Below are positions 15,424 to 46,707 of a stretch of 49,060 bases of DNA, in pieces. The stretch's first letter is position 1. The number at the start of each line of letters is the position of its first letter. The DNA comes from Candidatus Doudnabacteria bacterium RIFCSPHIGHO2_01_48_18 (GTDB taxonomy: Bacteria > Patescibacteriota > Doudnabacteria > UBA920 > 2-01-FULL-46-14), in the NCBI GenBank assembly GCA_001777515.1, contig MFEF01000022.1:1-49060 (forward strand), written 5' to 3'. Below the pieces are notes generated by a model. The model saw only the letters and a program-made list of their open reading frames with translations, had not been told where the DNA came from and made no database searches. Both the position numbers and the translations under genes were made by a program.

Positions 15424-15557
15424 TTTGCCTAAACCCTGTAGAGATACAGGGCATGGCAGAAAGTCCACTCTCATGCAGAGACGGTCATCCGTCTTGTCTA
15501 AGCCATGAGAGTGGCCGCTACCCGAAAGGGTGGTGGGGCAAGCGGGTGGCCTTTTTT
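15424..15557 (+). ncRNA. structured RNA upstream of mod (family not recognised)
   Basis: Four stems can be drawn without conflict: an outer TTGCC/GGCAA stem (15425-15429 with 15537-15541), a 7-bp hairpin with a GAGA loop (15434-15451), a perfect 11-bp stem CCACTCTCATG/CATGAGAGTGG (15465-15475 with 15504-15514) capped by a 6-bp hairpin (15479-15494), and a CTACCC/GGGTGG hairpin with a GAAA loop (15518-15533). Two GNRA loops favour the plus strand. GGCC (15513-15516) plus ACCC (15520-15523) can instead pair with GGGTGGCC (15544-15551), just before TTTTTT, forming a terminator that competes with the 11-bp and outer stems. It may be a free RNA or an attenuator of mod. Confidence 0.65.
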
Positions 15558-22787: not shown

Positions 22788-23243
22788 ATGGTCCGTATTA
22801 TACCAGAAAATTATAAAAGGCTGACCAGATTGCTTTGAACCAATCAGACGCCTTGGGAAACAAAGCTATGGTATTATCTTCGCGGAAACCGTTTCAAAGG
22901 GTTAAAATTTAAACGACAGTATAAAATCGGCAATTTTATTGCTGATTTTTATCCAGCACCTTCCAGAATACCCCGCAGCTTGCTGCGGGGATGAATGGCT
23001 CAATATAGCCTTCCTGCGGGGTGCAATACCCCGACAGGAAGGTGCTGGATTTATTGCTCCGAAAAAAAATTGATTATTGAAATCGATGGCGGACAACACA
23101 ACGCGGATCAGAATAAATCCGCGGATGCCACACGAACAGAATTTTTAGGAAATGAAGGATTTAAAGTATTGAGATTCTGGAATAGTGAGATAGATAATAA
23201 TATTGAAGGCGTTTTGGAACAAATAAAAAGAGAGGTGTCTTGA
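22788..23243 (+). pseudogene. DUF559 endonuclease-like protein, broken
   Basis: Reassembled, the frame reads ENYKRLTRLL, then LWYYLRGNRFKGLKFKRQ, IGNFIADFY, and after an insertion KKLIIEIDGGQH and FKVLRFWN. This is the DUF559 family, a PD-(D/E)xK fold related to very-short-patch repair nucleases. Two lesions are visible: TGA after RLTRLL, where CGA Arg would fit, and the 98-bp palindromic element inserted at DFY|CSEKK, which brings a stop in this frame. The original TTTATTGC site can be read across both junctions. The gene is flanked by inverted hairpin repeats. Confidence 0.85.
22952..23049 (+). mobile_element. 98-bp palindromic element, copy 1 (in DUF559)
   Basis: The terminal inverted repeats TCCAGCACCTTCC and GGAAGGTGCTGGA are 13 bp long. 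Inside are a CCCCGCAGC/GCTGCGGGG hairpin and a second GGGGT/ACCCC hairpin. Direct TTTA lies on both sides (22948-22951 and 23050-23053). Deleting element plus one TTTA restores a clean DUF559 reading frame at this point, which proves insertion. Confidence 0.9.
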
Positions 23244-29325: not shown

Positions 29326-31215
29326 CTACAGGTTTTCTTTAATTTTTTTCGCCTGCGCCATGCCAACCTCTGCGGCAATGGCCTGAAGCGAAGCACCGCG
29401 AATAGCTGAAACACTGCCGAATTTTTTTATAAGCTTGCGGCGGGTCACCGGACCGATACCGGGTACATCCTCGAGCCTGGAGACGACTCCGGATTTTCTG
29501 TGGCGTGTGCGGTAAAAAGTAATAGCAAAGCGGTGCGCTTCGTCGCGGATGCGTTGCAGCAGAAATAAAACCGGGTTGTCGAGCGCCAGCAGGATCGGTT
29601 CTTTGGCGCGGGGCAGGAAGATTTCCTCGAGGCGTTTAGCCAGGCCGATGATGGGAAGCTGTAAATTGTAAGTCGTCAGTACCTCGGTCGCCACGTTCAA
29701 TTGTCCCTTGCCGCCGTCGATGACGATGAGGTCTGGAGTGGGCCATTTTTCCTCCGCCGTAGAATTTATCCAGCACCTTCCAGAATACCCCGCAGCTTGC
29801 TGCGGGGATGAATGGCTCAATATAGCCTTCCTGCGGGGTGCAATACCCCGACAGGAAGGTGCTGGATTTATTCTGGCAAATCTCCGTGTGAGCATCTCCT
29901 TCATCATGGCAAAATCATCCGGCGTGTCTTTGATATTTATTTTAAATTTGCGGTACTGCGATCTGTCAGGCCGTCCGTTTGTGAACACAACCATGGAGCC
30001 AACCGGATTGGTTCCCTGGATGTTTGAGATATCAAAACCTTCGACGCGTTTGGGAAGCGCGGGCAGATTTAACAAAATCTGCAGCTCGGACAGAACATGA
30101 GGAAGATTTTTTTCAAAACTCGAGAGGGCCCGCTCATAAAACAGGGCAGCGTTTTCCGCGGCAAGCTTCACTAATCCTTTTTTGCGGCCGCGGGTTGGTA
30201 CTCGCAGCCTCACGCCCGCCTGGTTTAGGGCAGCCCAGTTGTTTTCGATAATGATTTGGTTGGGAAGCGCTTCAGGCAAGTTGATTTCTTTCGGCAGATC
30301 TGACGCGTCTGTATAGTACTGCAGGATAAAACGCTGCATTATTTCCGCGGCAGCCGCGTTCTCATGCTCCAGGGTGAAATGCTCAGTATGAATCAGCTTG
30401 CCTTCTCTGACCATAAACAAGCTGACTACTGCTTCCTTTGCGGTCAGGTGAATGCCAAGGTAATCATTGTTTTCGCTTCTGGAGGAAACGATTTTTTGCC
30501 GCTGCCAGAGATGCTCGAGGTTGCGGATATTGTCGCGTAAAATTCCGGCTCTTTCAAACCGCTTGCCGCGGGCCGTTTCCCGCATCTCTGTCTTCAGCGA
30601 TTTGAGGACCGCGCTCTGCCGGTGACGCAAAAATTCCTCGATCTGTTTAAAGGTTTGCCGATAATCAACCAGCGGTATGCGGCCAATGCAAACGCCGGTA
30701 CAGCGCCCCAGATGATAGGCAAAGCACGGGCGGTCAGTGACCTTGTTGTTGCGGCACAAGCGAAACACGCTCTTGATCAGACGCAGGGTTTCCTTCACAG
30801 ACAGTCCCGAAGTATAAGGACCGAAATATTTGTTTTTATTGCGGAAATTTTTTTCAATGCTGCGAACCGGATAGATTTGCGGAATCTGCGTGCTGTAATC
30901 AATCTTGATAAACTGATAATTTTTGTCGTCGCGCATTCGCACATTGAACCGCGGCTGGTACTGTTTAATGAGGTTGTTTTCCAAAATCAGGCTCTCGATC
31001 TCTGAGGAAACCACAGTGTAATCAAGATCGGCGATATTTTTTATCATGACTTGCAAGCGCGGTTCATGATCTCGCCCGTTCAGGAAGTAAGACTTAACCC
31101 GATTTTTTAGATTCTTGGCTTTGCCCACATACAATACTTCTCCCCGGTCATTTTTGAAAACGTAAATACCAGGGAGATTGGGCAGGTGCTTCAATTTTTG
31201 TGCTAGTTCTACCAT
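29326..31215 (-). CDS. uvrC: excinuclease UvrC with a 34-residue element insertion
   Basis: Dual-incision nuclease of nucleotide excision repair, acting with UvrA and UvrB. 629 aa: GIY-YIG domain (10-90, LPGIYVFKNDRGEVLYVGKA), Cys cluster near 155-176, UVR helices (about 195-235), RNase H-like nuclease with EGFDISNIQG (Asp 395), VIDGGKGQ (Asp 500) and DEAHRF, and C-terminal HhH motifs (VPGIGPVTRRKLI). Residues about 450-483 are encoded by a 98-bp palindromic element plus its TTTA duplication, in frame, in the loop just before the VIDGGKGQ strand. Without it, RFARINSTAEEKW reads like normal UvrC. Catalytic residues are intact, so the protein may be active with the extra loop. Confidence 0.95.
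   Translation of the reverse strand: MVELAQKLKHLPNLPGIYVFKNDRGEVLYVGKAKNLKNRVKSYFLNGRDHEPRLQVMIKNIADLDYTVVSSEIESLILENNLIKQYQPRFNVRMRDDKNYQFIKIDYSTQIPQIYPVRSIEKNFRNKNKYFGPYTSGLSVKETLRLIKSVFRLCRNNKVTDRPCFAYHLGRCTGVCIGRIPLVDYRQTFKQIEEFLRHRQSAVLKSLKTEMRETARGKRFERAGILRDNIRNLEHLWQRQKIVSSRSENNDYLGIHLTAKEAVVSLFMVREGKLIHTEHFTLEHENAAAAEIMQRFILQYYTDASDLPKEINLPEALPNQIIIENNWAALNQAGVRLRVPTRGRKKGLVKLAAENAALFYERALSSFEKNLPHVLSELQILLNLPALPKRVEGFDISNIQGTNPVGSMVVFTNGRPDRSQYRKFKINIKDTPDDFAMMKEMLTRRFARINPAPSCRGIAPRRKAILSHSSPQQAAGYSGRCWINSTAEEKWPTPDLIVIDGGKGQLNVATEVLTTYNLQLPIIGLAKRLEEIFLPRAKEPILLALDNPVLFLLQRIRDEAHRFAITFYRTRHRKSGVVSRLEDVPGIGPVTRRKLIKKFGSVSAIRGASLQAIAAEVGMAQAKKIKENL
29769..29866 (+). mobile_element. 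98-bp palindromic element, copy 2 (in uvrC)
   Basis: Reads the same as copy 1, with TTTA at 29765-29768 and 29867-29870. In the uvrC frame (minus strand) it is open and encodes NPAPSCRGIAPRRK, HSSPQQAAGYSG and RCWI, adding 34 codons with the duplication. Confidence 0.92.
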
Positions 31216-37458: not shown

Positions 37459-37466
37459 TTATTTTA

Positions 37467-37533
37467 TCCAGCACCTTCCAGAATACCCCGCAGCTTGCTG
37501 CGGGGTGCAATACCCCGACAGGAAGGTGCTGGA
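37467..37533 (+). mobile_element. 67-bp deletion derivative of the palindromic element, copy 3
   Basis: Identical to the 98-bp copies except that 31 bp are missing between two CTGCGGGG repeats. The terminal repeats and both TTTA flanks (37463-37466, 37534-37537) are intact. It sits just upstream of the 66-aa gene, in the 393-bp stretch before hrcA. Confidence 0.9.
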
Positions 37534-37537
37534 TTTA

Positions 37538-37730
37538 TTTAGTTTAGTACCTACGCAAATACTACCAAATCAATGAATTTCATGCAATAATATGTTGTCC
37601 GCTAACCAGGACACCCTATGGCACATGAATTTACTGACCCTCCTTCGCTAAAGCTGTGGACGGCGAGTGTGTATAATTTTAGCGGTTGCTACAAGAACCA
37701 CATCCTTCCGTAGCCTTGGCACAGGAGGAT
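37538..37730 (+). other. intergenic stretch with half-repeat
   Basis: No gene that I can support. It holds CCTTCGCTAAAGCT (37642-37655), which recurs at 37805-37818 in the hrcA leader, a TATAAT at 37672-37677 without a good -35 box, and a 31-codon frame from 37618 without a ribosome site. Confidence 0.4.
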
Positions 37731-46016: not shown

Positions 46017-46056
46017 ATGTACCATATTTTAACCGATCGGTTAATTCATGGTACAT
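46017..46056. repeat. 40-bp palindrome at the 3' end of the PaaX/Cas2-like gene
   Basis: Outer arms ATGTACCAT and ATGGTACAT, centre TTAACCGATCGGTTAA (perfect), with three mismatched pairs between. It is homologous to the palindrome at 46664 (shared ATGTACCA, TTTAACCGATCG, TGGTACAT). The reconstructed stop codon of the PaaX/Cas2-like gene lies in one arm. On the minus strand it is followed by TTATTTTTTT, so it could also terminate that gene. Confidence 0.75.
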
Positions 46057-46656
46057 GCAAATTAAAATTTTTAATTAATTCCTTGTCGCCAAAAAACCGA
46101 TTTGCCTGCAATAAATCCAGCACCTTCCTGTCGGGGTATTGCACCCCGCAGGAAGGCTATATTGAGCCATTCATCCCCGCAGCAAGCTGCGGGGTATTCT
46201 GGAAGGTGCTGGATAAATGTACGCACGATGTTATTTTTAGATAGTCAGTTATTAAATTGAGTTCTGTTTCACACTCGTAAGGAAGCACAAATACGCTTCT
46301 TTGAAAATGAAAAAAACCAAGCTCTTTCAATTTCCGTCGAAAAGTTTGTCTCGTCCCACTGTTTTTTTTCGGGATATCAAAGGTTAATAACCGCCATTTA
46401 CCATCCCACGGAGCCTTTTTAATCCCAGCTTTGTGAGCAGAACCTGTCCTTTTGGAGACCGCGCTGGAAAGGCGATAAATTTTTTGTTCTTGAGATAGTA
46501 CAGTCTTCTCTGGATTTCTCGTCGGTTATACTTCTCCATGTACTTTTCTGGATCTAAAATCAGCTCCATTGTCGCATCCTTCATTGAGACGAGCTTTAGT
46601 ATTATATCCTCTACATCCCAGCGATTTCTGCTTCGAAATGATCCTTGATATCCCAT
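46046..46656 (-). pseudogene. PaaX/Cas2-like protein, broken by frameshift and insertion
   Basis: The first 80 residues (46656 to about 46417) form a winged-helix-like N terminus with NRREIQRRLYYLKNKKFIAF. One A seems lost from a run (five A at 46420-46416). Restoring it continues as KAPWDGKWRLLTFDIPKK, then TFRRKLKELGFFHFQRSVFV, PYECETELNLITDYL. This is the ferredoxin-like Cas2/PaaX C-terminal domain common in CPR genomes. The palindromic element (copy 4) then interrupts the last strand; beyond it ANRFFGDKELIKNFNLHVP ends the gene. Without repair the product stops after 90 residues. Related palindromes lie immediately before the start and at the stop. Confidence 0.8.
46116..46213 (-). mobile_element. 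98-bp palindromic element, copy 4 (in the PaaX/Cas2-like gene)
   Basis: Same sequence as copies 1 and 2 but in the opposite orientation on the plus strand, flanked by TAAA (46112-46115 and 46214-46217), which is TTTA on the other strand. Removing element plus one TTTA joins VHL to LQANRFF in frame. Confidence 0.92.
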
Positions 46657-46663
46657 ATATTTC

Positions 46664-46707
46664 TAATGTACCACAGTTTAACCGATCGCGTAAACTGTGG
46701 TACATTA
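46664..46707. repeat. 44-bp palindrome upstream of the PaaX/Cas2-like gene
   Basis: Perfect 17-bp arms TAATGTACCACAGTTTA and TAAACTGTGGTACATTA around a 10-base centre ACCGATCGCG, seven bases before the start codon of the gene. An extended -10-like TGGTACATT lies in the arm nearest the gene, so a protein bound here would control it. Homologous to the palindrome at 46017. Confidence 0.85.

Follow-up and report, generated by a model that had tools for sequence, protein, structure and literature searches.

Near one end of the analysed window (49,060 nucleotides, one whole contig of a 919-kb Patescibacteria genome) a small gene coding for a winged-helix/Cas2-like protein lies between two related palindromes, one just upstream of the start codon and the other over the stop codon. 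One such site could be an operator. A matching site at the far end of the gene raises the question whether the pair delimits a self-contained unit, as was proposed in the initial annotation of this DNA.

A dead gene between two palindromes

The features of the locus are collected in Table 1. Both palindromes described in the initial annotation were found at their places, and they share 81% identity over 42 bp. In a pattern search, TGTACCA-N18..34-TGGTACA occurred only at these two places of the 919-kb genome and the reversed control gave 0 matches. The Cas2-like (PaaX) domain attributed to the encoded protein was recognised by profile searches, in which the second half of the gene matched PaaX_M (7e-19) and also CRISPR_Cas2, both above the curated cut-offs.

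Table 1. Positions in the window of the gene, its palindromes and the lesions that interrupt it.
Feature	Position	Strand	Remark
Upstream palindrome, 44 bp, core CGATCG	46664..46707	.	seven bases 5' of start codon; recurs at intact ortholog
Gene 5' part, winged-helix/Cas2-like	46411..46656	-	start codon at 46656
40-bp deletion junction	46410..46411	.	reading frame broken; nucleotide alignment with L051
Gene 3' part, PaaX_M/Cas2-like domain	46046..46410	-	shifted frame; split by insertion
Inserted ~96-bp MITE	46117..46212	.	CCAGCACCTTCC terminal inverted repeats
ATAAAT flanks of inserted MITE	46111-46116 + 46213-46218		both sides
Stop codon	46046-46048	-	inside downstream palindrome
Downstream palindrome, 40 bp, core CGATCG	46017..46056	.	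contains stop codon; 57 bp 5' of topA start

An intact ortholog is present in a sister genome (Candidatus Doudnabacteria RIFCSPHIGHO2_01_FULL_46_14; MFEK01000010.1, loci L038/L051), also 5' of topA, and carries both window palindromes at the same places. The 5' part of the window gene is 88% identical to it over residues 2-85 and the Cas2-like stretch 87% identical, and the upstream homology stops near the outer edge of the upstream palindrome. The window gene had been described as dying by a frameshift and an element insertion. The alignment confirmed and refined this description: the gene is dead because a 40-bp deletion shifts the frame and a MITE is inserted, the latter being one of ~42 near-identical copies in the genome, which are the product of a very recent burst. 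Where this MITE has ATAAAT on both sides, the ortholog has ATTTAT once; the same flanks recur at other copies of the element, so they may represent a target preference or the element ends and not a pure duplication. Both palindromes persist around the dead gene, and the locus is a decayed copy of the widespread arrangement described below.

Two further observations were made in the window. The MITE, a hairpin of ~100 bp with ends CCAGCACCTTCC, occurs at 22948-23056, 29764-29872, 37463-37539 and 46110-46218, and LOOT RNA (RF03000), a family of small RNAs, is matched at 15426-15551 (Rfam, 73 bits).

Pairing of the gene with its palindromes in Patescibacteria

Of 60 relatives, 46 contain PaaX_M genes, with a maximum of 11 per genome; in a sample of 380 genomes from the whole phylum, 122 contain them. 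All of these genomes appear to be draft assemblies, many of them from metagenomes. From 120 fetched regions, 127 distinct PaaX_M genes were obtained and the pairing was counted on those with full flanks. Matched palindromes, the first near the start and the second at the stop, accompanied 64 of 119 PaaX_M genes; for the other genes encoded in this DNA the count was 3 of 811. When imperfect palindromes were allowed, two related sites were found around 91 of 118 PaaX_M genes and in 7 of 356 shifted control windows. About three quarters of the winged-helix/Cas2-like genes of Patescibacteria are bracketed by two matching palindromes of ~36 bp. The paired palindromes for which the initial annotation proposed to test genes of this type are a property of most PaaX_M genes of the order, each with its own pair, and they also surround some PaaX_M genes from further families of the phylum (L239, L246, L247, L251). 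The arms vary from unit to unit (ACCATGCCACTTTTTCACGGCCGTGAAAAAGTGGCATGGT, CCACAGATTTCATGATCATGAAATCTGTGG, GTATCACTTTTGAGCGGCCGCTCAAAAGTGATAC) and the two copies around one gene agree; the downstream site lies just past the stop codon (median +3 bp). The similarity of the proteins is correlated with that of their half-sites (Mantel r 0.217; maximum 0.146 in 1000 permutations).

The expectation that intact homologues carry the downstream palindrome held for most members and failed for one clade of PaaX_M genes, which has conserved neighbours, no palindromes and the look of an ordinary resident gene. The genes of this palindrome-free clade (L085, L101, L115, L154, L091, L079, L074 and L095) are short and share their neighbourhood across genera; they are probably a domesticated or ancestral regulator.

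Each palindrome consists of two arms of ~18 bp around CGGCCG, CGATCG or a similar centre. In 55 sites picked by the core TCACGGCCGTGA alone, whose arm sequences are very diverse, self-complementarity was 84-98% out to arm position 17, 0.71 at position 18 and 0.64 at position 19, with background (~0.3) beyond position 20; the element is therefore ~36-38 bp long and has no loop. No target-site duplication was found flanking these 55 sites. Paired copies are most alike at the centre and in an outer motif (positions ~12-17) and least alike in the A/T-rich spacer. In the spacer, 86 positions have changed together in both arms, a count which is biased because the pairs were found by palindromicity, the set of 55 core-picked sites being free of that bias. 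The imperfections of imperfect palindromes are common to both copies, in direct orientation in 22 cases and in inverted orientation in 3; one palindrome is thus a copy of the other, and the two are not operators that were selected independently. Mismatches of the G.T and A.C types are about equally frequent (25 vs 26 and 23 vs 25), without G.T excess, and a T-run follows 12 of 67 downstream palindromes.

The protein has ~180 residues, with an N-terminal winged helix followed by a Cas2-like ferredoxin domain. A structure model built from 60 relatives (mean pLDDT 90.6) shows the same order, and a fold search with this model returned E. coli PaaX (8a39, E 6e-5) first and Rv0674 next, followed at weak E-values by many Cas2 structures. 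No solved relative was found by sequence search. Asp110, located where the first ferredoxin strand ends, is invariant in the alignments (67/67 and 60/60 proteins); 8 of the 67 proteins are missed by the strict string [FYVIL]DIP, and the alignment still puts an Asp in that column in all of them. Cas2 has its metal-binding Asp at this strand end.

The PaaX_M domain was recognised in 60/60 proteins and PF09827 (CRISPR_Cas2) in 42 of 60 at E<=0.01, representatives lying just at the Pfam cut-off, and TIGR01573 (Cas2) was matched with 27.3 bits for a cut-off of 24.5. The score for the full-length PaaX equivalog of NCBIfam was 28.8 bits, below the cut-off of 264.55, and the PaaX C-terminal domain was not found in these proteins. 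An HUH motif was sought as H-hydrophobic-H and found in 0 of 67 proteins, and the 60 proteins searched contain no transposase domain, Y1 included, apart from one weak helix-turn-helix match. Cas1 is present in 2 of the 60 genomes, and G002 is the only one of these two that contains PaaX_M as well. The known PaaX proteins act as repressors of transcription, and Cas2 plays in CRISPR adaptation a structural role beside Cas1 and is not the integrase.

Solo palindromes and the presence or absence of units

Palindromes of this kind are also found alone, their counts resting on pattern searches with one core type and on ~1.85 Mb of fetched DNA. A search with the fixed 12-bp core TCACGGCCGTGA gave 40 sites, spread over 8 genomes of a single genus (reversed control 0), and many sites of this core are far from any PaaX_M gene, both within and between genes. 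Across the sampled genomes, 85 such sites belong to the 122 genomes that have PaaX_M genes and 7 to the 258 that have none, and the reversed control gave 4 and 13, respectively (both tallied by hand); the number per genome is small, from 0 to ~13. The best arm match of 42 solos to the units of their own genome was on average 9.26 of 13, compared with 7.69 +/- 0.24 when genomes were shuffled (maximum 8.36 in 500 permutations). Clear matches to L080, L064 and L088 were obtained for solos of G035, G020 and G039, among others. For 22 of the 42, above all in the families of G044, the best match is not a detected unit of the same genome, and the cognacy of dispersed palindromes to units is statistical and does not extend to every solo. 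Five copies of GACCTRTAAAATTCACGGCCGTGAATTTTAYAGGTC are present in G044, some with arm changes (L214, L215, L217, L219, L221), and no cognate unit was detected in that genome; this is an orphan family or one whose gene is missing.

Some solos of ~36 bp are in-frame insertions inside tsaD, miaA, mnmA and mutM, where they usually read H-G-R-(D/E), so that even essential genes are affected; these gene names, and that of the O-antigen-ligase-like gene below, are our own reading of the sequences. The solo of tsaD corresponds to ~13 residues absent from six relatives; in mutM and in the O-antigen-ligase-like gene it is the other open frame that runs through the palindrome. In miaA, one and the same loop contains a palindrome in G039 (L200), G043 and G044 (loci L205/L230 and L207), each time with different arms. 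Other insertions occur in this loop in further relatives, and it is an insertion-tolerant hot spot. In two genera (L106:16062, L185:1506) the O-antigen-ligase-like gene has a palindrome at equivalent positions, again with different arms; this palindrome was therefore either kept and rewritten or inserted twice. A further perfect palindrome, CCACGTCGTTCGCGAACGACGTGG, is common to two genera (L112:1715, L152:13923) and lies away from PaaX_M genes.

Comparison of orthologous loci, which the initial annotation had put forward as a check, revealed that a unit is either there in its entirety or missing in its entirety. Empty sites flanked by the same genes were found for L107 in G039, L078/L088 in G037, L103 in G001 and L049 in G000, and no leftover palindrome was detected at any of them. 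The differences could reflect either insertion or loss of units. The closest unit pairs mostly have common neighbours; many units are therefore vertically inherited and transposition must be rare. The neighbours differ for L136/L145 (72% identical), L082/L087 (69%) and L120/L121 (67%, same genome). No locus was found at which one genome has a solo palindrome where another has a full unit, and a solo-palindrome region sought as an empty site in a sister genome was not conserved there. Base-exact insertion points were not obtained because the genomes are too diverged (~70-80%). None of the viral contigs contained the motif of this Cas2-like protein, the pattern being narrow and this evidence weak.

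A Cas2-like protein and its palindrome: explanations and known systems

The pairing across the family and the presence or absence of units as blocks suggest that the far-end palindrome marks a self-contained unit and not an operator, as the initial annotation had it. The best reading is a system similar to RAYT/REP and not homologous to it, in which the Cas2-like protein would bind, probably cut, and spread its own palindrome; its mobility and its catalysis we infer. For the window itself, a dead self-bracketed unit (palindrome-gene-palindrome), whose Cas2-like protein would read the palindrome as a dimer, could cleave it and would spread it, is given a probability of about 0.55. Two copies of the protein would bind the palindrome symmetrically as a dimer. 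The outer motif, at arm positions ~12-17, would be read by the winged helices, and the CGRYCG-type centre would be covered by the pair of Cas2-like domains, whose invariant Asp could bind a metal there for DNA cleavage. Cleavage or nicking at the centre would lead to copying of the ~36-bp palindrome to new places, giving the non-autonomous solo sites, and more rarely the whole palindrome-gene-palindrome unit may move. That this constitutes a new minimal class of mobile element, in which a Cas2-like protein without Cas1 would cut a long palindrome that has no loop and copy it to other places of the genome, with the gene of the protein moving between two such palindromes, is a tentative proposal to which we give somewhat less than an even chance.

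The sites could instead be paired operators. In that case a PaaX-like repressor would autoregulate through the upstream palindrome, the downstream copy would form a loop or a roadblock and the solos would be operators of other genes; the E. coli repressor PaaX as best fold match, the operator-like position of the upstream site at the start codon, the co-variation of half-sites with the protein and the clade resembling a resident regulator are all compatible with this. It is nevertheless unlikely, since a cognate site right after the stop codon in most members is not operator-like and direct readout does not need spacers that differ between copies and yet stay self-complementary. The in-frame insertions in four genes, the imperfections common to both copies in direct orientation and the units that come and go as blocks also speak against it. 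A further proposal is a site-specific recombination cassette, with the palindrome as attachment site and a circular form which integrates and is excised between direct copies, leaving one palindrome behind. The direct orientation of asymmetric copies and the solos cognate to units would fit, but the leftover palindrome that this model predicts was not found at the empty sites, no locus is solo in one genome and occupied in another, and we know of no recombinase-type active site in the fold of the protein; we consider it improbable.

The palindromes might also serve for genome addressing or defence, as host tags or as nucleoid or segregation sites read by the protein and spread by an unrelated process. 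Sites that stay palindromic while diverging, and their similar placement in miaA (three genomes) and in the O-antigen-ligase-like gene (two genera), are in agreement with such a role, to which the different arms among units of one genome, the low number of sites of one core and the bracketing of the protein's own gene leave little likelihood. RNA hairpins, acting as terminators or as mRNA-protecting stems around a small gene, are very improbable: a T-run does follow the downstream copy of the window on the gene strand, but the scarcity of T-runs in the family and the lack of G.T bias largely refute this reading, and the centres are self-complementary without loop. The lone palindromes are in part located within genes, and they are not the ordinary terminators that, according to the initial annotation, would have spoken against a self-contained unit.

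Among known systems, RAYT/REP (PMC2817692) is also a single small gene between two short palindromes with cognate palindromes dispersed elsewhere, and it shares the co-variation of protein and palindrome, the compensating changes that keep palindromicity and orthologs that are often in place. It differs from the present units, which have a winged helix and a Cas2-like fold without HUH motif or Y1 transposase domain, palindromes usually loop-free, of ~36 bp and without GTRG head, copies that are direct and not inverted where distinguishable, arms that differ per unit, and far fewer solos. The Rickettsia palindromic elements (RPE, PMC10969869) are likewise in-frame palindromic insertions at tolerant positions of protein-coding genes, but they measure ~150 bp instead of ~36 bp, and the present palindromes come with a candidate cognate protein. 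Repressors of the PaaX family (E. coli PaaX, PDB 8a39) have the same succession of winged helix and Cas2-like domain, whereas the present proteins score far under the NCBIfam PaaX cut-off, are without the PaaX C-terminal domain, occur in several copies per genome and, in the loci read, show no association with phenylacetate genes. With CRISPR Cas2 they have in common the ferredoxin fold, an Asp at the catalytic position and Pfam/NCBIfam Cas2 matches at or just above cut-off, but they are fused to a winged helix, their genomes have almost no Cas1 and no link to CRISPR was seen. Unlike DDE-type insertion sequences, the core-picked sites have no flanking target-site duplication, and the T-runs of intrinsic terminators are mostly missing. 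No description of the arrangement was found in the open-access literature, preprints and most subscription papers lying outside the search. What is new here is the pairing of protein and palindrome, and it looks like an undescribed self-bracketed mobile unit, whose movement we infer from the sequences.

If the sites prove to be operators, this would be a variant of a regulator rather than a new kind of system. Palindromes that are dispersed through genomes or inserted in frame into genes have been a puzzle for a long time, and few enzymes are known for them. Here each type of palindrome indicates a particular small protein, so that binding, cutting and mobility are directly testable. The arrangement may explain the stand-alone 'Cas2' and 'PaaX' annotations in CRISPR-free genomes. 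If the preferred reading is true, a major bacterial branch would harbour a type of mobile element with a protein unrelated to known transposases, Cas2-fold proteins would gain a role in mobility outside CRISPR, and in-frame palindromic insertions of the Rickettsia kind would have a candidate enzyme.
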